A stretch of 10,348 nucleotides of DNA, taken from positions 1-10,348 of the forward strand of contig NVRZ01000095.1 of assembly GCA_002401055.1 (NCBI GenBank), in the 5' to 3' direction. Position 1 is the first letter of the stretch, and every line of letters begins with the position of its first letter. The position numbers were made by a program, and so were the translations under genes. The notes beneath the pieces are model-generated. The model had not been told where the DNA came from. It was given only the letters and a program-made list of their open reading frames with translations, and did not search any database. This DNA is from Bacteroidota bacterium. Its GTDB lineage: Bacteria; Bacteroidota; Bacteroidia; NORP154. Positions 1-10,348 of this stretch are shown in pieces.

Positions 1-298
1 CAGGTTCAATCAAAACCGCATTTCCATTATCGTCAGGCACACCCAAAGTTAATACCTCAGACATGACAGGGCCAATTTGCCTGGAGGGGAAATTAACAAC
101 ACCTAATACCAACCTATTGATCAGCTCTTCCTTTGAATAATTTGCCACAAGTTGAACACATGACTTTTTAACGCCCGTTTCAGTTCCAAAGTCGATTTTT
201 AACTTATAAGATGGATTTCTGGCTTCTGGGAAATTAGATACCTCTATAATTCTTCCAACTCGTATATCAAGTTTTTGGAATTCGTCAAAGGTCGCCAT
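1..298 (-). CDS. csaA: CsaA-type tRNA-binding domain/chaperone protein, C-terminus beyond the window
   Basis: The first 99 codons read from ATG at 298-296 on the minus strand (MATFDEFQKLDIRVGRIIEV). Landmarks of the CsaA/EMAP-type tRNA-binding OB fold are clear: DIRVGRI at 11-17, FPEARNPSYKLKIDFG at 23-38, VVNFPSRQIGPVMSEVL at 67-83, then LGVPDDNG. CsaA proteins are about 110 residues, so only about ten are missing past the left edge. CsaA is a cytoplasmic protein reported to bind tRNA and to have export-related chaperone activity in Bacillus. Nothing links it to peptide synthesis; it is likely the housekeeping neighbour that bounds the NRPS cluster. It lies 71 bases after the diiron-type gene on the same strand, so read-through from the operon or its own promoter are both possible. 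No Shine-Dalgarno sequence precedes the start. Confidence 0.93.
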   Translation of the reverse strand, partial: MATFDEFQKLDIRVGRIIEVSNFPEARNPSYKLKIDFGTETGVKKSCVQLVANYSKEELINRLVLGVVNFPSRQIGPVMSEVLTLGVPDDNGNAVLIEP

Positions 299-358: not shown

Positions 359-384
359 GTTCCTTACGTTTATACGTGAGGAAC
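359..384. repeat. Inverted repeat (11-bp arms, 4-base loop) over the stop codon of the diiron-type gene
   Basis: Arms 359-369 and 374-384 pair at 10 of 11 positions; the odd pair is 365/378. The loop 370-373 contains the TAA stop of the 251-residue gene. In the minus-strand transcript it forms a strong short hairpin, but GCAAAATTC follows instead of a U-run, so it is not a standard intrinsic terminator. It may act as a 3'-end or processing hairpin, a weak terminator, or a protein-binding palindrome. Confidence 0.6.
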
Positions 385-1125
385 ATAACTTGCATCTTCA
401 CTAGACTTGACTTTTTGAATTGTACTATATATCCCTTCCCAGAAATTTGCAATTAAATTGAGATGATCATTAAATCCGTCAATGATCTCTTTAGTACTTT
501 GTTCACTCACCAAATACTGCTTTACGGCATTGAGCGATTCCACCTTGTGCTCTTTTTCCGCTGCACCCAAATGAGCATAAAAATATTCGCAAGATTCATA
601 GAAGCCATCAGGGTCCTTCCACAAACCCTTATAATTCTGAGCCCCTTCATAGAGCTTTCTTAACATAGAATAAGCCTGCCATTCTAAAGCCAATTGTGCT
701 CCAACCGCAATTTCTCTACTGCCTCCATACAGTTCTCTTTCGCCTTCGATCAACTCAGTTGTAAATTTTATAATAGACACTTCCTTTTCCAATCGTTCTC
801 TGTTCAACCTTTCCGGTTCACCTAACTGATTGGCTAAATCCGCCCAGAATTGATCCAATAATTTCCAATGCACTTTATCCGGTTGCCCGTAGCCCATTTC
901 TGAATACAAGGTGTTCACATATTCTATTTTAGCTATTGGATCTTCAATTGTGGTAAAAAGGATGGCCAAGGAATCAGGGAATGCTTTGACCCAAGCACCA
1001 TAATTCCTGGCAAAAATTTCCAATTCTCTAAAGCTCAGTTTTCTGTCAAGCCACAGGTCATAAAATGAATTATTAAGAGCACTATGTTCGGCTATCTCTT
1101 CCAATAACAGTTGTAATTTTTTCAT
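370..1125 (-). CDS. Haem-oxygenase-like diiron oxidase family protein (CADD/TenA-like), putative tailoring enzyme
   Basis: A soluble, all-helical 251-residue protein with no signal peptide or membrane segment. The layout matches the CADD-like 'iron-containing redox enzyme' group. It has an N-terminal FARNYGAWVKAFP segment, then NTLYSEMG with E76 ten residues before H86 (KVHWKLL), E148 in ALEWQAY, and YFYAH...EKEH with H185, E190 and H193. These six match by position the metal ligands of CADD/SznF-type enzymes. One departure is that the last motif reads H-x4-E-x2-H, where H-x3-D/E-x2-H is usual, so H185 is displaced by one residue. It lacks recognisable TenA or PqqC catalytic signatures. It sits 22 bases after the NRPS, so it probably tailors the peptide or a precursor amino acid by O2-dependent chemistry. 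The substrate and reaction are unknown. Upstream of ATG the DNA is A/T-rich without Shine-Dalgarno. Some databases label this family 'TenA family regulator', which would be misleading here. Confidence 0.75.
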   Translation of the reverse strand: MKKLQLLLEEIAEHSALNNSFYDLWLDRKLSFRELEIFARNYGAWVKAFPDSLAILFTTIEDPIAKIEYVNTLYSEMGYGQPDKVHWKLLDQFWADLANQLGEPERLNRERLEKEVSIIKFTTELIEGERELYGGSREIAVGAQLALEWQAYSMLRKLYEGAQNYKGLWKDPDGFYESCEYFYAHLGAAEKEHKVESLNAVKQYLVSEQSTKEIIDGFNDHLNLIANFWEGIYSTIQKVKSSEDASYVPHV

Positions 1126-1147
1126 ATATGTAATTTTTAATGATTAT

Positions 1148-4100
1148 TTAGAAATTAAATTCTTCTTCCGTTAATTCCAGGGAGCTGACAACTTGTAAAG
1201 AACCATCCAAACGAATGTCGTTAATTTGAATTTTATCGTCTTGCGTAACTTGTCGCAATATAGTAATTAGATCCTCACACAAAATTTTTATGCTACCTCT
1301 GTTAAATAAATCTGTGTTGTATTCAAGAACTCCAAAAACCTGCTCTCCATTTTCACCGAAATTCAAGTTAATATCTAATTTACTTATTACGTAATCAATC
1401 GGGAACCCTTTAACCCCTAACTTCCTCATGGTTTCAACCTCTTCTCGCTCTCCGCGGGTATTATTCAGTACGACCATTACATTAAACAGCGGGTTGCGGC
1501 TCAAATCCTTGTCCAAATCCAATTCATTGACCAAAAGGTCAAATGGATATTCTTGATGCTCATAAGCATTTAGTGTAGTCTCCTTTACCTTGCTGAGTAA
1601 TTGGGCAAACGTGTCATCAGGTCTAAACCTTGTTCGCAATATTATTGTATTCAAATAGCACCCTATTTGATTTTCGGTGTCACTGTGTGTCCTAATTGCT
1701 GATGGGGATCCTATAATAATATCTGCTTGTCCGGAATACCTGTACAAGAGTGTTTTCACCACCGAAAGCAGCACCATAAACAGTGTTACATCGTGTCGTT
1801 TACAAAGCTTCTGCAAATCCAGGGATATGCTTTTTTCAACTGAAAACTGTATCCAGTTACCGTTAAAGGTCTGAATCGCTGGACGCGGTTTGTCAGTAGG
1901 CAATTCCAAAACCGGCAGTTTCCCATTCAAATGATCGATCCAATATTGTCTATGTTTATTCATCGATACTGCTTTCAACTCTTGGTTTTGCCAAGCAGAA
2001 TAATCTTTGTACTGTATGCTTAACTTCTGAAGCGGATTTTCCTTATGCTGCAAGTAAGCAGCATAAAGGGTCATAACATCCTTGATAAAAACTCCTAATG
2101 ACGATCCATCACTGATGATATGATGCATATTAAATATAAACACATATTTTTCGTCCGTCAGCTGGATGAGTTTAGCCCTCAATAAGGGGCCGTCAGCCAG
2201 ATTAAACGGGGTTGATGCCTCCAAATTTGCGATGTCACGGGCTTTCTTTTCGTTTTTTGGCTCCCTCCTCAAATCTATACTTTCAAGTTTAAACCCAGCT
2301 TTATCAGCAGGCAATATTTTCTGTCTTGGCTCTCCTTTTATGGTCACAAATAAAGTGCGAAGGCTTTCGTGTCTGTTTACCAAAGTATCCAGGGCCTTAC
2401 CAAATAACTTTTTGTTTATCTTTTTTTCAAGCAAGCAAGCATTTATCATATTATATGCCTCAGGGCTTTGAGCAAGCTGATCCAATATCCAGAAGCGCTT
2501 CTGCACGTGGGATAGAGGATAACTATCCTGCTGTTTCACAGGCATTATGCTGTCTTGTGCCGACTTTTCCTCGAGTGCTATTGTCTTAACAAGTTCTTGT
2601 ATAGTAGGATGAATAAAAATCGTCTTCAGCTCAATCTTAACTTCCAGTACTTTATGTATCTTAGAAACTACTTGAGTAGCCATAAGTGAATGTCCTCCCA
2701 TATCAAAGAAATTGTCGGTGATACCTATCTTTTCAATGTCCAATACTTCCTTCCAAATCTTAACTAATTTTTTTTCCATTGGATTTTGCGGCGGCATATA
2801 TTTGACCTTGCCTGTTAGTTGCAGGCTTTTCAGGTCTGGCAGGGATTTGCTATCAATTTTTCCTGCAGACGTCAGCGGCAGTTTCTTCAGTGAGACGAAG
2901 AAGGAAGGTATCATATATTGAGGTAAATTTTCAGACAAGTAATTTTTTAGCTCATTTCTTTGAAACTCTTGGCTGGCAACTACATATGCACACAGATATT
3001 TTTGTTTATCCTTATCATCTTCCCTAGCCAATACCACGGCTGCCCGAATGGCACTATGCTTAAGTAAATGATTTTCTATCTCCGCCAATTCAATCCGGTG
3101 CCCCCTTATCTTCACTTGATCGTCTAATCTTCCCAAAAATTCCATATTTCCATCGCGAAGCCACCTTGCGCAGTCCCCTGTTTTGTACATTTTCTCCATT
3201 GAATCAAAGGGACTCTTCACGAATTTCTCGGCGGTCAGCTTACGTTTACCTATATACCCCCTCGCAATCGCTTTACCTGAAATACATAGTTCGCCTGGTA
3301 AGCCAATAGGAACTAGATTGTTACTACTATCCAGAATATATATCTTGTAATTATTCATTACGGGACCAATTGAGATATTGGGCCCAGAATTCTTATCGCA
3401 TCTAAAATGGGAAGCCCCTATCGTTGCTTCCGCAGGCCCATAACCATTATAGACCTTTGCATATTTCAACAAAGAAGAGATATGTTCGCGCTTTAGCACA
3501 TCTCCGCCGTTAATAAAAGTGTGAACACTTGGCGATCGGGGTAGTTTATTTAATCCATCCAACAAGAGAGGAGGGCAGCTTACTATGGTAACACCGCACC
3601 TATTGATCAGTTTGTGGAGTTTTTCCATGTCCTCCACTTCTTCTTCAAATGGAACGACCAGTTTTCCACCTTTCAACAAAATCGAGAACACTTGCTCTGC
3701 CAGTAAATCGAAGGAAACAGAAGTTAATTGTAGTGTAATGTCAGTTGACTTTACATGAAAAATATCGTCGAATGCAGACAAGTAAACATTCAAATTTCTA
3801 TGCTCTATCATCACACCTTTCGGCTTTCCACTGGTTCCGGAGGTATAAACCAGATAAACCAAGCTTTGTGCTGTACTCACCGGCTCTAAATTTTGAGCAT
3901 TGCCTGAATAAAGCTTTTCATCATCAACCAGCAGAATCTCATTCTTCAAAGAATCATTGTTTTGCTCTTTAAGTGTTTCCACAAATAGCTTTTGAGTGAG
4001 GATCACTTTAGCCTTGCTGTCTTTCAACATATACGTCTTCCTATGCTCAGGATACTGCGGATCGATTAATAAATAGGCTGCAGCCGCTTTTAAAGTTCCG

Positions 4101-7100
4101 AGCATCGCAATTACCATTTCAGGAGATCGTTCCATAACTAAGGCTACTATCGTATCCGCAACAACATCTTTTTGTCTTAATATTCTAGCGAGTTGGTTGG
4201 CCCTTTCATTTAGTTCCCTATATGTAAGAAACTTGTTTTTATAAATTATTGCTGTGAAATCGGGTGTTTGGGCGGCTTGCTTTTCGAACAGTTCGTAAAT
4301 CGTTTTATTATGAGGGTACGGAGCTTTGGTTTTGTTGAATTCAAAAAGAATCTGGCGCTTTTCCTCCTCCGGAATTATTTCTATCCGCCCTAATTTATTA
4401 TTCGGATTCTCCGTTATATTGGTGACAATCGCCTTGAAATATTTGGTAAACCGTTTGATAGTGTCCTTTTTAAAGAGTTTGGCTACATATTCAAAAGAAA
4501 GTGACAATTGCTCTTTCTCCACTATCACATCCAGGCTGAGATCGAACTTGGATACCTGGCTTGCGCTTTTATAAAGGCTTAATTTTAACGCAGATGTTTC
4601 TTTGAAGTCAGGTTCAGCCTCTTTTAAAGTAAACATTACGTTAAACAGAGGGTTTTGGCTAATGTCGCTGCCCACCACTACCTTTTTAACCAGTTCTTCA
4701 AATTGGTAATCCTGATTCTCTAGGGCTTTTAATGTGCTCGTTTTTACTTCATTCAAAAAAGAGATGAATGTCATCTCTTTTAGCGGATGGTTTCTCATTA
4801 CCAGTGTATTAACAAACATTCCAATCAAACATTGGAGCTCCAACTGTCTCCTGCCTTCCACCGGTGTTCCCACCAAAATATCTTCCTGAGCACTGATTTT
4901 AGACAAGAATATGTAATAAACGGAAAGCAATACCATAAATGATGTGGCCTTCTGTTTTGCTGCAATATCTTCCAGTATCTTCGTTTCCCTCCTACTTAAG
5001 GTAAAGGTAACCGCATCACCATCGAAATTCTGTATGGCAGGTTTCGTATAGTCCGTCGGTAATTGTAGAATAGGAACCTCCCTGTCAAATTGTTTTAGCC
5101 AATAAGTTTCTTGCTCATTTCTCCTTTTTATTTGCTCTTCACTATTCATCCATTCCGAATAATCTCTGTACTGAATCTTCAATGGACGTAATTTTTCTCC
5201 CTCATAAATTTCCATGAATTCATTAAGCAGGACCTTGTCCGATAGTCCATCAGAGATAATATGGTGTAAATCTGTAATTAACAGGTGCCGATTAGCACCG
5301 ATATTTATCAACCCTATTCTCAAAACGGGGACTTTGGAAAGGTCAAATGGTTTTACGAAGCTTTTTATCACACTTTCAACTTCCTTTTCGGTGGATTTAA
5401 AATGGACTACTTCTACAACCGCATCCTTTTGTATTTTTTGAAATGGCCGACCGTTTAATAGCACAAAGGAGGTTCTAAGACTTTCATGTCTATGTATCAA
5501 CTTGTTAAATGTGGCCTCAAGTATTTTCTTATCCAATTTCCCTTCCAGTAAAACCGTTGATGGCAAATTGTAGGCAGTAGTTTTCAAATCCATTTGCTGC
5601 AACAAAAACAATCGCCTTTGGGCCGGCGACAGTTCATAATATTCCCTTTTTTCTGCCGACTGAATAAATACATATTTGTCCTTCTTGGACTTTCGGATAA
5701 CTGTCGATAAGCCACTGATAGTAGGTGCGGAGAACACTTCTTCAAAATCAATTTTAGCACTGAATTCCTGTTGTATTTTGGATATCAATAAAGATGTTCT
5801 CAATGAATGTCCCCCTATCTCAAAAAAGTTGGTGTCAATGCCAATCTTACTTCGTGCAACATTCAATATTTCAGACCATAATCCCACAAGTTTTACTTCC
5901 AGTTCATCTCTGGGTTGTAAGTGTTTTGCTACAATATCAGTCCCTGTTTCTTTAGGCTCAGGTAGGCCTTGTATATGTATCTTTCCATTGGGTGTTAATG
6001 GCAATTTTTCTATTTGAACCAAATAAGCCGGAATCATATAATCGGGAAGCACTTTTCTGAGTTGATTGTTTAGTTTCTTTGGTTCGATCACTTGATCCGA
6101 AACTATATAGGCTACAATTTCCATATTGGCACCATTACCTCCTCTGACAGTCACCACGGCGGCTTTCACTCCGTTTTTCTTCAACAGGGCATGTTCAATC
6201 TCCCCCAGTTCTATCCTATGCCCCCTGATTTTTACTTGTGCATCTTCACGGCCTAGAAATTCGATATTGCCATCCGGAAGCCAACGACCCATGTCTCCCG
6301 TATCATACATCCGTTCAACATCCATGAAATAGTAGCCATTGATAAATTTCTCTTTTGTTAATTCCGGACAGTTAAGATATCCCCTGGCAAGTCCTTTTCC
6401 TGCTGCATATATTTTCCCCTTAGCCCCTAACGGAACTGGTCTCAGGCTTCTATCCAATATATAAACTTGGGAATTGGATATAGGTTTTCCAATGGGTACG
6501 TTATCCACATGCTGCAATTCAATTTTGTAGCATGCTGTAAAAGTTGTGTTTTCAGTCGGCCCGTAACCGTTAATGATCTCCAGTTGAGGATATGCCTTCT
6601 TCAGTTTATTTATATGGAATGGGGAAAGCCTTTCACCCCCTACCAATAGTTTTTTCAGTTTGGCAAACTGTGTTATATCAATTTCAACCAATTGATTAAA
6701 CCAGGAAGCGGTAAGCCATAGGATTGATATTTCCTCATCTATTAGCAACTTCTTAAACATCTCTCTATTTAGCAATTGTTTCTGATCTGCTAAATGCAGA
6801 GATGCCCCGTTTAACAAGCAACCCCATATCTCAAAAGTAGACGCATCAAATGCCAAAGATCCGGTCTGAAGTAACTTATCCTCTTTGTCAATATTTACGT
6901 AATTCATGTTCTTTACCAACCTCACCACGCCTTTATTCTCGATCATAACCCCTTTTGGAGTTCCAGATGATCCCGAAGTGTACATTACATATGCCAGATC
7001 ACTTGATCGATTTGTTATTCGTGGATTATGATCCTTGCTATTGGTTATTTCGTTATTGTCTTTAGTTAATGAAATCGTGGCATAATTTTCCAGATTCGGA

Positions 7101-8248
7101 TATTTAATTGAAGACTTAGAGTCAAGAATCAAACATTTTGGGTGGACATCATTCAGGATAAAGTGTATTCGCTCCTTTGGGTAATCAGCATTAATGGGAA
7201 CATATGCCGCACCTGATTTCAAGATACCCAAGAGGACAATAATCATCTTTTCTGATCTATCCATCAATAAGCCGATTAGGTCATCAGCCTGAGTGGAGTA
7301 TTTTACTTTTAGGTAATGTGCCACTCGATTTGATCTGCTATTCAGTTGCGCATAAGTGAGAGATTGATCTTTGTGAACTACTGCAATTCTTTTCGGTGTT
7401 TTCTTTGCCTGTGCCTCAAACAATTGCACTATCGTCTTATCATTAAGTCGGCCCACCGCCTTTTTATTAAAATCATCAGTTAACAAACTTTTCTCTTTTT
7501 CTGACAATATATTTATATGCAATACCTTCATCTCCACATCCTTGAGAGCCGATATAAGAATAGATTTAAAATGTGCAATTATCCTTTTTATGGTTGGCTT
7601 TTCATAAAGCAGCGAATTGTAATTTACCGTGCCTTCTATGTAGCCAGTTGTTTTTAAAAAAGAAAAGGCCATATTATGCTCGGTATTTTCCAGGTATTTG
7701 GGATCCTGAATGTTTTCAAGTAACACCGATATATCAAATAGTGGGAAATAGGGGTCATGACCTGATAAGCTCAATTGATCAACCAACAATTCAACAGGAT
7801 AACTTTGGTTTTCCATCGCTTCCGTCAATGTTCCCTTGACAATCAACAGCAACTTCCTGAATGTCAAGTCATCTTCTAATTGATGTCTCAGTGGAAGCAC
7901 GGTATTACTAAAATCGCCTTCAACATCCTGTTTGTAGATAGATGTACCCAATGTTAAATCCCTGTTTTGAGTATATTTATTGATCAATACAATAAGTCCC
8001 GAGATAAGAATTATGTGTAAGCGGGTATCAGAGCGATTGCTCAACCGAGTTAAGCTGAGGAAAAGATTACGAGGAAACTTGAATTTTAGGGTGTGTACAA
8101 CCTGCTTTTTTTTAATATTCGCTGCAATGTCATACGGGAAAACCGCTTTGGTGAAGTCTCCCGACAACTTGTTTAACCAATAAGTTTGCCCCCTGGTATT
8201 TTGCCCAGCTGCGATTACTAATTTATGCTTGTTCGCTTTTTTTGTCAT
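1148..8248 (-). CDS. Two-module nonribosomal peptide synthetase: half-C, A1, PCP, C, A2, PCP, terminal C
   Basis: A 2366-residue NRPS. Domains in order: truncated C lobe (about 17-250); A1 (about 275-765; YTSGSSGTPKG at 423-433, NGYGPTE, YDTGD, A10 K756); PCP1 (GGHSL, S815); complete C (about 868-1295; HHIISDG at 995-1001); A2 (about 1315-1805; YTSGTSGKPKG, NGYGPAE, YKTGD, K1797); PCP2 (GGHSL, S1854); complete terminal C (about 1908-2345; HHIISDG at 2042-2048); and an acidic tail ending EEEFNF. Pocket residues read DAFWLGGTFK for A1 (valine-like) and DLESIGGIGK for A2 (closest remembered code is a lysine one). No E, methyltransferase, TE or reductase domain is present. The ATG start is preceded by no Shine-Dalgarno sequence. 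It lies 42 bases after the upstream NRPS and 22 bases before the diiron-type enzyme, so one operon is likely. It should add two residues to the chain; the product is unknown. Confidence 0.97.
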   Translation of the reverse strand: MTKKANKHKLVIAAGQNTRGQTYWLNKLSGDFTKAVFPYDIAANIKKKQVVHTLKFKFPRNLFLSLTRLSNRSDTRLHIILISGLIVLINKYTQNRDLTLGTSIYKQDVEGDFSNTVLPLRHQLEDDLTFRKLLLIVKGTLTEAMENQSYPVELLVDQLSLSGHDPYFPLFDISVLLENIQDPKYLENTEHNMAFSFLKTTGYIEGTVNYNSLLYEKPTIKRIIAHFKSILISALKDVEMKVLHINILSEKEKSLLTDDFNKKAVGRLNDKTIVQLFEAQAKKTPKRIAVVHKDQSLTYAQLNSRSNRVAHYLKVKYSTQADDLIGLLMDRSEKMIIVLLGILKSGAAYVPINADYPKERIHFILNDVHPKCLILDSKSSIKYPNLENYATISLTKDNNEITNSKDHNPRITNRSSDLAYVMYTSGSSGTPKGVMIENKGVVRLVKNMNYVNIDKEDKLLQTGSLAFDASTFEIWGCLLNGASLHLADQKQLLNREMFKKLLIDEEISILWLTASWFNQLVEIDITQFAKLKKLLVGGERLSPFHINKLKKAYPQLEIINGYGPTENTTFTACYKIELQHVDNVPIGKPISNSQVYILDRSLRPVPLGAKGKIYAAGKGLARGYLNCPELTKEKFINGYYFMDVERMYDTGDMGRWLPDGNIEFLGREDAQVKIRGHRIELGEIEHALLKKNGVKAAVVTVRGGNGANMEIVAYIVSDQVIEPKKLNNQLRKVLPDYMIPAYLVQIEKLPLTPNGKIHIQGLPEPKETGTDIVAKHLQPRDELEVKLVGLWSEILNVARSKIGIDTNFFEIGGHSLRTSLLISKIQQEFSAKIDFEEVFSAPTISGLSTVIRKSKKDKYVFIQSAEKREYYELSPAQRRLFLLQQMDLKTTAYNLPSTVLLEGKLDKKILEATFNKLIHRHESLRTSFVLLNGRPFQKIQKDAVVEVVHFKSTEKEVESVIKSFVKPFDLSKVPVLRIGLINIGANRHLLITDLHHIISDGLSDKVLLNEFMEIYEGEKLRPLKIQYRDYSEWMNSEEQIKRRNEQETYWLKQFDREVPILQLPTDYTKPAIQNFDGDAVTFTLSRRETKILEDIAAKQKATSFMVLLSVYYIFLSKISAQEDILVGTPVEGRRQLELQCLIGMFVNTLVMRNHPLKEMTFISFLNEVKTSTLKALENQDYQFEELVKKVVVGSDISQNPLFNVMFTLKEAEPDFKETSALKLSLYKSASQVSKFDLSLDVIVEKEQLSLSFEYVAKLFKKDTIKRFTKYFKAIVTNITENPNNKLGRIEIIPEEEKRQILFEFNKTKAPYPHNKTIYELFEKQAAQTPDFTAIIYKNKFLTYRELNERANQLARILRQKDVVADTIVALVMERSPEMVIAMLGTLKAAAAYLLIDPQYPEHRKTYMLKDSKAKVILTQKLFVETLKEQNNDSLKNEILLVDDEKLYSGNAQNLEPVSTAQSLVYLVYTSGTSGKPKGVMIEHRNLNVYLSAFDDIFHVKSTDITLQLTSVSFDLLAEQVFSILLKGGKLVVPFEEEVEDMEKLHKLINRCGVTIVSCPPLLLDGLNKLPRSPSVHTFINGGDVLKREHISSLLKYAKVYNGYGPAEATIGASHFRCDKNSGPNISIGPVMNNYKIYILDSSNNLVPIGLPGELCISGKAIARGYIGKRKLTAEKFVKSPFDSMEKMYKTGDCARWLRDGNMEFLGRLDDQVKIRGHRIELAEIENHLLKHSAIRAAVVLAREDDKDKQKYLCAYVVASQEFQRNELKNYLSENLPQYMIPSFFVSLKKLPLTSAGKIDSKSLPDLKSLQLTGKVKYMPPQNPMEKKLVKIWKEVLDIEKIGITDNFFDMGGHSLMATQVVSKIHKVLEVKIELKTIFIHPTIQELVKTIALEEKSAQDSIMPVKQQDSYPLSHVQKRFWILDQLAQSPEAYNMINACLLEKKINKKLFGKALDTLVNRHESLRTLFVTIKGEPRQKILPADKAGFKLESIDLRREPKNEKKARDIANLEASTPFNLADGPLLRAKLIQLTDEKYVFIFNMHHIISDGSSLGVFIKDVMTLYAAYLQHKENPLQKLSIQYKDYSAWQNQELKAVSMNKHRQYWIDHLNGKLPVLELPTDKPRPAIQTFNGNWIQFSVEKSISLDLQKLCKRHDVTLFMVLLSVVKTLLYRYSGQADIIIGSPSAIRTHSDTENQIGCYLNTIILRTRFRPDDTFAQLLSKVKETTLNAYEHQEYPFDLLVNELDLDKDLSRNPLFNVMVVLNNTRGEREEVETMRKLGVKGFPIDYVISKLDINLNFGENGEQVFGVLEYNTDLFNRGSIKILCEDLITILRQVTQDDKIQINDIRLDGSLQVVSSLELTEEEFNF
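1151..2536 (-). other. Terminal condensation domain and acidic tail, no following A/PCP/TE
   Basis: Residues about 1905-2345 form a whole C domain: YPLSHVQKRFW, NRHESLRT, HHIISDG at 2042-2048, IQYKDYSAWQ, IGCYLNT, HQEYPFDLLV, RNPLFNVMVVL. The catalytic second His is H2043. About 20 residues follow, ending LTEEEFNF and the TAA stop. With no acceptor module downstream, this domain either releases the peptide onto a free amine or internal nucleophile, or works with an acceptor encoded elsewhere. The acidic end could be a short docking tail; this is speculative. Confidence 0.8.
2834..4306 (-). other. Adenylation domain A2, pocket suggests a basic amino acid
   Basis: By the same alignment the pocket residues are D1514, L1515, E1518, S1557, I1579, G1581, G1602, I1610, G1611 and K1797, giving DLESIGGIGK. 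Glu at position 239 would suit a cationic side chain. The string shares D, E, S, I, G and K with the bacitracin lysine code DAESIGSVCK as I remember it. The A4 segment reads FDLLAEQVF instead of FDxSxxE, so a one-residue shift that puts Ala at 239 is possible. Core motifs are otherwise intact, apart from GPAE for GPTE. Confidence 0.5.
5954..7426 (-). other. Adenylation domain A1, predicted valine-type
   Basis: Aligned by eye to the GrsA phenylalanine domain, the ten pocket residues are D468, A469, F472, W511, L535, G537, G561, T569, F570 and K756. The string DAFWLGGTFK differs by one conservative change (L for I) from the classical valine code DAFWIGGTFK. A valine or similar branched aliphatic substrate is expected. 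One motif oddity is YDTGD in place of the usual Y(R/K)TGD at A7. Confidence 0.75.
7514..8200 (-). other. N-terminal half-C lobe of the NRPS (condensation-domain remnant)
   Basis: Residues about 17-245 begin at the QTYWLNKLSG segment, which normally lies in the middle of a C domain. They continue through the C-terminal-lobe landmarks (TLGTSIY, LPLRHQL, NQSYPVELLVDQL, FPLFDISVLL) to the C-A linker (INILSEKEK). The N-terminal lobe and HHxxxDG are absent, so this lobe cannot catalyse condensation alone. As the upstream protein ends in a complete C domain, the remnant may act as a docking surface; that role is inference. Confidence 0.85.
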
Positions 8249-8290: not shown

Positions 8291-10348
8291 CTACATGTTT
8301 TTCATAATCTCGATCTCTTTCAACCTCACTTCAGGATTTTTTAAAACAGCCTCTAAAACCCTTACAAAATTCTGCTTGAACTCGTGCATCGTTTCCTGTT
8401 TGAATAAATTTGCATTGTATTCAATGTTCAATTTTATACCACTCTTGGTCCACACCGCCTCTATTAAGATATCATTTATTTCTATATTTTTATCGACCTC
8501 CAGCCGGGTTAGTTTCAAGTCTTGCAATTGAATATTTCCAATATCTACATTGAAAAACATGAAAATCGTATTATAAAGCAAATTCATGCTATCCCCTCTT
8601 TTTATCTTTAGCTCTTTTACAAGATCGTCAAATTGGATCAGTTGATTCTCATGTGCTTTGAGCGTTTTTCCTTTTATCTCAGATAAAAACTCTTCAAATG
8701 TTTTGTTGTCCGTAGGGTTACCCTTTAACGCAATGACGTTGATAAACATTCCAATTACATTTTGCAGGTCTGCATGTGGCCTGCCTTCAATAGGATATCC
8801 TACCGTTATCTCATGCTGTCCGGTGTATTTATACAATAAAGTATAATAAGCGGTAAGAAGTATCATGAATAAGGTAGCTTGTCTTTCTCTTGCAACCTCT
8901 TCCAGCTGATGAACAAAATCTTTGTCTAGCCGGATATATGTGCATTTTGCATCGTAAACCTCATTGTCTGCACGAGCAGAATTAAAAGGCAAATTAAGTT
9001 TGGGTACCCCCCCTTTGAATTCGTTGAGCCAATATTGTTTCTGTTTCTTTACCGTTTCGGAGTTCATCAGATCAGCATGCCACATTACGTAGTCTTTGTA
9101 CTGTACATTTAGTTCCGGAAGCGTCTCTCCATTATAAAGACTTGAAAATTCTTTCATCAAGATTTCAATTGATTTACCATCAGCAATTATATGATGCAAG
9201 TCGATCATTAGCAGATGGTCATGTTTTGAGAGTTTTACGAGCCTAACTCTGAGCAACGGAGCTGTTTCCAGAGAAAATGGTCGAATAAAGTCATTGATGA
9301 GTACAGATATTTCATCTTTCGGTACGGCGATGTAGTCCATTTTAAATTCTACCTTTTCATAGACTTTTTGGACAAGTTCCAATCCGTCAATTTCAAACGC
9401 AGTTCTCAAAGATTCATGTCTGTTTACCAGTTGTATAAATAATCCATCAATTTTCTTTCGATTTACGTTTCCTTCTACTCTTAAGATAAGAGGTTGATTG
9501 TTAACCGCAGTCTGATCATCATATTGTTCTATAATAAAAGCTCTTGTTTGAGCCGGTGAGGCAGGGTAATGATCTCTAATTTCCACCCGTTTAATCGACG
9601 GCTTTGTTCTTGTTTCAGATCCCTTTACATATTTAGCGAGTTGCTTCACAACCGGCTTTTGAAAAAATACCAATATGGGCACCTCAACTTCCAACTCCTT
9701 GTGAATTTTGTGTATAATATTGATGGCGAGTAATGAATGTCCACCCAAATCGAAAAAGTTGTGATTTATACCTATGCTCCCATTCAATGCAAATACTTCC
9801 GACCAAATTTTTATGATTGTCCTTTCTATATGATTCCCGGGAGCCTCATACTCTTTAGTCAAGTTTATTTCAATCGGCCACTCTTCCAAAGCGTTTATAT
9901 CAATTTTACCGTTGGGCGTTAAAGGAACCTCCTCGAGATTAATAAAATGAGAGGGTATCATATAATCAGGAACCCTTTTTAGTAAGTGTTTTCTTATTTG
10001 ATCACCGGTTACGGGCTTATGGGAAACGAGAAAAGCACATAAATCGGGATCTTGCTTAGCTGTGCCGCGTCTCACTATTACAACTACTTCCTTTATTTTG
10101 GAGTGTTCTAATATATGATATTGCACCTCTCCAAGCTCAATTCGGAAGCCCCGGATTTTAACCTGGTGATCCCGCCTTCCCAAAAATTCGATATTACCGT
10201 CTGACAGCCATTGAGCTATGTCTCCGGTTCGATACATTCGTTGTCCCGAAGCGAATGGATTGGAAACAAAATTCTCCTTTGTCAATTCGGGTTTATGAAA
10301 ATATCCACGCGCCAGACAATCGCCAGAGAGGTATAATTCACCCGGCAA
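8291..10348 (-). CDS. Nonribosomal peptide synthetase, C-terminal part (A-PCP-C), 5' end beyond the window
   Basis: This is the last 685 codons of an NRPS that enters from the right edge. Residues are counted from the first whole codon, a TTG read here as internal Leu. Residues 1-155 are the end of an adenylation domain: LPGELYLSG, YRTGD at 39-43, GRRDHQVKIRGFRIEL, and the A10 lysine K148 in LTPNGKID. A peptidyl carrier domain follows (about 168-240), with LGGHSL carrying the phosphopantetheine serine S205. Then comes a complete condensation domain (about 258-680) with YPASPAQ and the catalytic HHIIADG at 385-391 (second His H386). The substrate pocket of the A domain is outside the window, so its amino acid cannot be read. 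No epimerase or thioesterase is present. The protein ends in TAG just after the C domain, so that C domain should act in trans with the A1-PCP of the next gene. The domain calls are firm; the partnership is inferred from gene order. Confidence 0.96.
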   Translation of the reverse strand: MPGELYLSGDCLARGYFHKPELTKENFVSNPFASGQRMYRTGDIAQWLSDGNIEFLGRRDHQVKIRGFRIELGEVQYHILEHSKIKEVVVIVRRGTAKQDPDLCAFLVSHKPVTGDQIRKHLLKRVPDYMIPSHFINLEEVPLTPNGKIDINALEEWPIEINLTKEYEAPGNHIERTIIKIWSEVFALNGSIGINHNFFDLGGHSLLAINIIHKIHKELEVEVPILVFFQKPVVKQLAKYVKGSETRTKPSIKRVEIRDHYPASPAQTRAFIIEQYDDQTAVNNQPLILRVEGNVNRKKIDGLFIQLVNRHESLRTAFEIDGLELVQKVYEKVEFKMDYIAVPKDEISVLINDFIRPFSLETAPLLRVRLVKLSKHDHLLMIDLHHIIADGKSIEILMKEFSSLYNGETLPELNVQYKDYVMWHADLMNSETVKKQKQYWLNEFKGGVPKLNLPFNSARADNEVYDAKCTYIRLDKDFVHQLEEVARERQATLFMILLTAYYTLLYKYTGQHEITVGYPIEGRPHADLQNVIGMFINVIALKGNPTDNKTFEEFLSEIKGKTLKAHENQLIQFDDLVKELKIKRGDSMNLLYNTIFMFFNVDIGNIQLQDLKLTRLEVDKNIEINDILIEAVWTKSGIKLNIEYNANLFKQETMHEFKQNFVRVLEAVLKNPEVRLKEIEIMKNM

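Follow-up and report, generated by a model that had tools for sequence, protein, structure and literature searches.

What does a haem-oxygenase-like diiron oxidase/oxygenase (HDO, PF14518) do when its gene lies directly behind that of a non-ribosomal peptide synthetase (NRPS)? The question is raised by contig NVRZ01000095.1 of a Bacteroidota bacterium (assembly GCA_002401055.1), the whole of which (10,348 bases) forms the window analysed here, and which belongs to a 2.49-Mb genome (G000) that is 60% complete. The fold of the protein, its conserved ligand set, its nearest relatives and its recurring NRPS setting were computed, and from these a substrate and a reaction are proposed. By analogy with the chemistry of BesC and PolF, the HDO may oxidise a free amino acid, which a pyridoxal phosphate (PLP) enzyme would finish and the NRPS would load, a reading that we hold with about even confidence. 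The open reading frame, for which the initial annotation gave no strand, is present on the minus strand, where it runs from an ATG at 1125 to position 370; the plus-strand reading of its frame is full of stops:

370..1125, minus strand: HDO gene, 251 residues, with predicted dimetal ligands E76, H86, E148, H185, E190 and H193 (open reading frame, PF14518 and alignments)

The assignment of this protein to the haem-oxygenase-like diiron oxidases, which the initial annotation made from pattern recognition, is upheld by four agreeing approaches (Pfam, a profile search of the PDB, a confident structure model and structure alignment), and by these it is classed as an HDO whose nearest relative is BesC, followed by CADD. 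The PF14518 search that had been suggested gave a match above the curated cut-off (E = 1.5e-11, 44.8 bits vs 28.9) over residues 38-223, and the model has the haem-oxygenase-like helical fold. TenA and PqqC, a clear best match to which would have spoken against the annotation, both rank below BesC and CADD, and a metal-free TenA/PqqC protein is rejected on this structure ranking together with the intact ligand set. Orthology to BesC is likewise rejected (NF042919, 32.6 bits vs an equivalog cut-off of 500), as is membership of the CADD family, by a TIGR04305 score of 51.6 bits vs a cut-off of 200 and by the missing amine-donor lysine. No characterised member close to this HDO clade was found in the literature searched, most of it covered at the level of search listings. 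Homologues are numerous, with 286 at E <= 1e-3 among 647 candidates in the protein collection. From the best 120 of the 286, 37 were chosen and aligned with the window protein (38-row set); a wider set of 16 rows consists of the window protein, 12 loci from genome contigs and three plasmid relatives (22-36% identity), the rows L004, L010 and L012 beginning or ending at the tblastn match.

The six candidate ligands were found at the positions that had been claimed for them, and all six are invariant in both sets (38/38 and 16/16 rows). Together they form an E-H-E-H-(D/E)-H set on three core helices, which is the motif stated for the HDO family in the available sections of PMC11363339. In the profile alignment they pair one-to-one with the E, H, E, H, E and H of BesC, and from this alignment their convergence on one site is inferred. 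The third helix differs in its spacing, which is H-x4-E-x2-H in the window protein vs H-x3-E-x2-H in BesC and AetD, so that alignment with BesC needs a one-residue gap here; with four residues between the histidine and the carboxylate, the protein falls outside the H-x3-(D/E)-x2-H subset (AetD, BesC and CADD). The longer spacing is shared by 14 of the 16 wider-set rows, the two most distant rows differing, and Gly187 within it is conserved in 38/38 and 14/16 rows. As spacing is reported to vary among HDO groups (PMC11363339, same sections), H-x4-E-x2-H does not exclude the protein from the family; no published account of the ligand spacing of this clade, or of its link with csaA, was found in the literature searched. 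In the model, mean confidence falls to 71 for residues 181-190 and 80 for residues 191-200, and residues 184-188 are non-helical. Both features fit the looseness that is known for the third ligand helix in the metal-free state (PMC13108848, in part).

Where SznF and RohS have their fourth carboxylate, an extra Glu ligand supplied by auxiliary helix 2 in the SznF type, the window protein presumably has Phe49, which is conserved in 38/38 and 15/16 rows; this placement takes Phe48 of AetD as the analogue and draws on the BesC and CADD alignments rather than on a direct SznF alignment. With Phe in place of Glu, a 3H/3C site is predicted, and judged from the sequences the protein most likely has a two-metal, O2-activating Fe2 site made up of three histidines and three carboxylates. 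The same position bears on the main rival explanation, viz. that the HDO is an N-oxygenase acting on an amino acid nitrogen (as SznF, HrmI, RohS and PvfB) and leading to an N-hydroxy, oxime or nitro group in the NRPS product. HDO and NRPS pairs of this type are known, the pvf cluster having the diiron N-oxygenase PvfB and the NRPS PvfC (PMC10194917, available part). Moreover, in the model the helix 63-76 is broken before the next long helix, 86-100, and the first ligand helix thus appears interrupted between E76 and H86, as has been described for SznF and CADD (PMC11611611, excerpts). E76 and H86 are 10 residues apart, vs seven for the corresponding pair in BesC. A distance of 10 presumably resembles that in SznF, a likeness counted in favour of this rival. 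The absence of Glu at the position placed by analogy speaks against it, as do the weak matches to SznF and RohS (E 0.075-0.17), BesC being closest in both sequence and structure. N-oxygenation thus seems somewhat unlikely, though it ranks first among the alternatives.

The relationship to CADD raises a further alternative, namely that the enzyme sacrifices itself in the manner of CADD and PabS, its own tyrosine being cut to give aminobenzoate. CADD gave the best NCBIfam score (the below-cut-off TIGR04305 match), the nearest relatives of solved structure include both enzymes, and Tyr27 of CADD aligns with Tyr22, an invariant residue (38/38 and 16/16). The radical-relay Tyr170 of CADD would correspond to Tyr181 (38/38 and 13/16), an equivalence obtained by anchoring only, counting back from the first third-helix histidine, the printed CADD alignment leaving the third-helix ligands unpaired. 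The place of Lys152, the amine donor of CADD, is taken in the alignment by residue 158; of the 38 rows, 35 have Leu here, two Ile and one Val, and in the wider set it is Leu throughout (16/16). Because this lysine is missing, even though the tyrosine is invariant, sacrifice of Tyr22 appears extremely improbable.

The remaining features of the window, in which A, T and C denote adenylation, thiolation and condensation domains of the NRPS, are as follows:

1126..1147, minus strand: gap of 22 bases between the NRPS stop and the HDO start
1148..8248, minus strand: NRPS of 2366 residues, half condensation domain-A-T-C-A-T-C (open reading frame and domain search)
8291..10348, minus strand: NRPS cut by the contig end, (A cut)-T-C (open reading frame and domain search)
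2..298, minus strand: CsaA-type tRNA-binding protein (PF01588), cut by the contig end (open reading frame and profile search)

The 22-base spacing noted earlier is thus confirmed, as the NRPS reading frame ends at 1148. That the gene and its setting are more than chance is indicated by the PF14518 match, the many homologues, the invariant ligands and the recurrence of the adjacency. A scan of genome contigs with the single protein gave no match; an alignment-based scan identified 12 loci (L002-L013). Five of these (L002-L006) are acidobacterial, with HDOs 55-60% identical to that of the window (tblastn); each has an NRPS gene immediately in front of the HDO gene and in the same orientation, so that the NRPS-linked loci, the window included, total six. 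The gaps are 54 (L002), 125 (L003), 80 (L005) and 39 (L006) bases, and about 75 bases in L004, where the distance was measured from the start of the match; the L006 contig covers no more than the last 138 residues of the upstream gene, with a T-domain motif among them.

This gene order also suggests the rival that comes next after N-oxygenation, in which the HDO carries out a tailoring oxidation of a peptide or amino acid bound to an NRPS carrier domain. In its favour are the direct succession of the two genes in all six loci and the finding that in the five acidobacterial NRPSs a T-domain motif comes last and is not followed by a thioesterase motif. The window NRPS differs in this regard: although a pattern search of the 2366-residue protein also revealed no thioesterase-type motif, it terminates in a C domain, which suggests that the assembly line continues elsewhere, and the HDO therefore may not sit at its end as in the acidobacterial cases. 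The remaining seven relatives (L007-L013), which are proteobacterial, 45-52% identical and have the same ligands, lack a nearby condensation domain in 7/7 loci by tblastn; the chemistry of the HDO thus need not depend on an NRPS. Further, the PLP chemistry encoded in the acidobacterial clusters requires a free amine. Carrier-bound oxidation is accordingly rated as rather improbable.

In both the window (7481-8203) and a second G000 contig (L035, 5690-6424), the condensation domain at the start of an NRPS is reduced to its C-terminal half (profile positions ~190-456), and the preceding protein in each case ends in a whole C domain. No exact end overlap of 19-200 bases was detected between the window and three other NRPS-bearing contigs of G000, and a search of this genome for 16S rRNA found none.

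Four of the five acidobacterial loci (L002, L003, L005 and L006) encode, behind the HDO, a PLP enzyme homologous with the L003 one; its gene is cut by the contig end in L002. The nearest families are HisC, GntC (gamma-hydroxyarginine cyclodehydratase), CobD and beta-methylarginine aminotransferase, all matched far below their cut-offs, and capreomycidine synthase is a weak match for two of the four enzymes. A type II thioesterase is present in L003, L005 and L006; for L002 the contig does not reach far enough to decide. Since relatives lack a nearby NRPS and a PLP enzyme follows in these four clusters, we think it more likely that the HDO supplies a building block than that it tailors on the assembly line; the undescribed tailoring step proposed in the initial annotation is plausible but should be refined in this sense. 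A free amino acid is the probable substrate because some relatives have no NRPS near them, because a free amine is required for the PLP chemistry, and because 3H/3C enzymes (AetD, UndA, HrmI, PolF and MboA) are described as binding their substrate at one iron (PMC13108848, available sections).

The sequence of events in the proposed supply of a building block would be as follows. The polar end of a free amino acid would coordinate one iron, as in AetD, UndA and PolF, and reaction of O2 with Fe2 would give a peroxo-diferric species. This species would then abstract a hydrogen, resulting in desaturation or in C-C/C-N chemistry such as that of BesC and PolF. Where a PLP enzyme is encoded in the related clusters, it might complete the building block, as BesB, which follows BesC in its pathway, does after BesC, and an NRPS adenylation domain would load the finished product.

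Several observations weigh against this proposal. A 3H/3C site is also compatible with N-oxygenation, as in HrmI (PMC13108848, in the part available), and the H-x4-E-x2-H spacing could change the metal site. No homologue of the L003 PLP enzyme was found in the 60%-complete genome of the window, whose contig stops within csaA and shows no PLP gene, and none was found among the L004 loci examined (L004 and L022-L024). In L004, from Candidatus Angelobacter, the gene directly after the HDO (10864-12465) is instead of the flavin-dependent halogenase type. Of the seven proteobacterial loci, two show adenylation-like matches, at 26% in L012 and weakly in L008, and three (L008, L010 and L012) give short pattern matches for C or T motifs.

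The HDO-linked clusters have other recurring elements. The motif NHYGPSE(T/S)HV, accompanied by FD(V/I)SFQE where this is not cut off, marks an adenylation domain that is found in the NRPS genes of L003, L004 and L005 and partly in L002 (1-1101), and a similar domain is present on another G000 contig (L034, 6622-8040). By the adenylation code the domain of L002-L005 would be proline-like with a changed pocket, a reading that carries no weight in the argument here. In addition, the L003 and L005 clusters have a start resembling a fatty-acyl-AMP ligase, judged by eye only. The terms "heme oxygenase" and "diiron" are absent from the main text of the Candidatus Angelobacter paper.

Overall, the HDO gene looks rare and patchy in its distribution. 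Genome surveys of the window's own phylum (1/296, E <= 1e-25) and order (1/7, E <= 1e-60) recovered G000 itself, and others at E <= 1e-60 gave 1/396 for the phylum of G297, 2/119 for the family of G300, 3/162 for the class of G296 and 1/399 for the class of G298; all matches were already known, up to six candidates per genome being scored among the rows listed in part of the surveys. In the proteobacterial loci L007 (9022-9891) and L008 (10834-11607), the neighbour of the HDO is an Asp/Asn-hydroxylase family protein with a C-terminal proline-3-hydroxylase match, which is above the cut-off in L007 but not in L008; L011 has a hydroxylase-type neighbour (10854-11714), as judged by the look of its N-terminus only. 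An HDO and a hydroxylase-type gene could possibly form a two-oxygenase amino acid pathway. A plasmid search yielded three matches of 23-37% identity. Plasmid clusters with a distant HDO (L018 8605-17940, L019 7006-13054 and L020 6876-13155) also contain PLP enzyme and ATP-grasp genes, with the same order in L019 and L020, viz. HDO, PLP enzyme, FAD oxidoreductase, TauD-type dioxygenase and ATP-grasp.

The initial annotation did not name csaA as a possible partner. In the window this gene starts 71 bases downstream of the HDO on the same strand, one contig end falling inside it and the other cutting the upstream NRPS gene. It is also found near the HDO in three of the five acidobacterial loci, following it in L003 (10881-11225) and L005 (10799-11143) and lying ~1.8 kb away on the opposite strand in L004 (12475-12819); none is near the HDO in L002 or L006. 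The L004 and L005 proteins are 78 and 76% identical to that of L003, all three are 47-49% identical to the window CsaA, and the best matches of the L003 protein are solved CsaA structures. In genome-wide searches, the HDO-linked copy was the only free-standing CsaA found in G297, G298 and G299 (the genomes of L003-L005), the second match in each being a frame of 713-735 residues, as expected of methionyl-tRNA synthetase; G296 and G300 had long-frame matches only (685 and 467 residues). These five genomes (G296-G300) are metagenome-assembled and may be incomplete. With thousands of genes per genome, we judge informally that chance placement of the sole csaA within ~2 kb of the HDO in 3/3 genomes having one is very unlikely. 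For the window, whose csaA is the only one found in the 60%-complete G000, it could be either a partner or the ordinary housekeeping gene. The CsaA-like protein is perhaps a linked accessory involved in self-protection of tRNA or of a tRNA synthetase. A bolder proposal, which we regard as highly doubtful, is that the NRPS, HDO, CsaA and PLP enzyme form one cassette, in which the HDO and PLP enzyme make an amino acid that is handled, delivered or released as aminoacyl-tRNA, or in which a tRNA synthetase is the target of the product and is protected by CsaA. No report linking HDO oxidation with tRNA in non-ribosomal peptide synthesis was found in the literature searched, and no description of csaA in a biosynthetic gene cluster was found in literature represented mainly by titles and the beginnings of abstracts.

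With about a dozen functionally validated HDOs, of varied reactions, among >10,000 sequences (PMC13108848, available sections), a clade that has the full ligand set, a distinct spacing, hundreds of relatives and NRPS neighbours in distant bacteria provides a concrete and expressible target, and the recurrence of csaA is curious enough to deserve separate testing.

In comparison with known systems, the closest solved enzyme is BesC (4-chloro-allylglycine synthase, PDB 7twa), to which the window HDO is 21% identical and from which it differs in both ligand spacings described above. BesC partners an ATP-grasp ligase and is not known to work with an NRPS. The CADD/PabS 4-aminobenzoate synthases (PDB 1rcw, 8va9 and 9pj4) have the ligand set and the conserved tyrosine at the sacrificial position in common with it, and CADD also its fold by structure alignment, but their amine-donor Lys is replaced in this clade by Leu, rarely Ile or Val. 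The SznF/RohS 3H/4C N-oxygenases share the HDO fold and, for SznF, the interrupted first ligand helix, but they are distant in sequence and have an extra Glu ligand where Phe49 presumably stands here. PvfB/PvfC are alike in gene setting, a diiron oxygenase gene adjoining an NRPS gene as in the window, and the available part of PMC10194917 makes no mention of the CsaA and PLP partners that recur around this clade. Both the HDO family and the pairing of an HDO with an NRPS, as in PvfB/PvfC, were already known; the H-x4-E-x2-H spacing, the NRPS upstream in the acidobacterial relatives and the recurring CsaA and PLP partners are new here.
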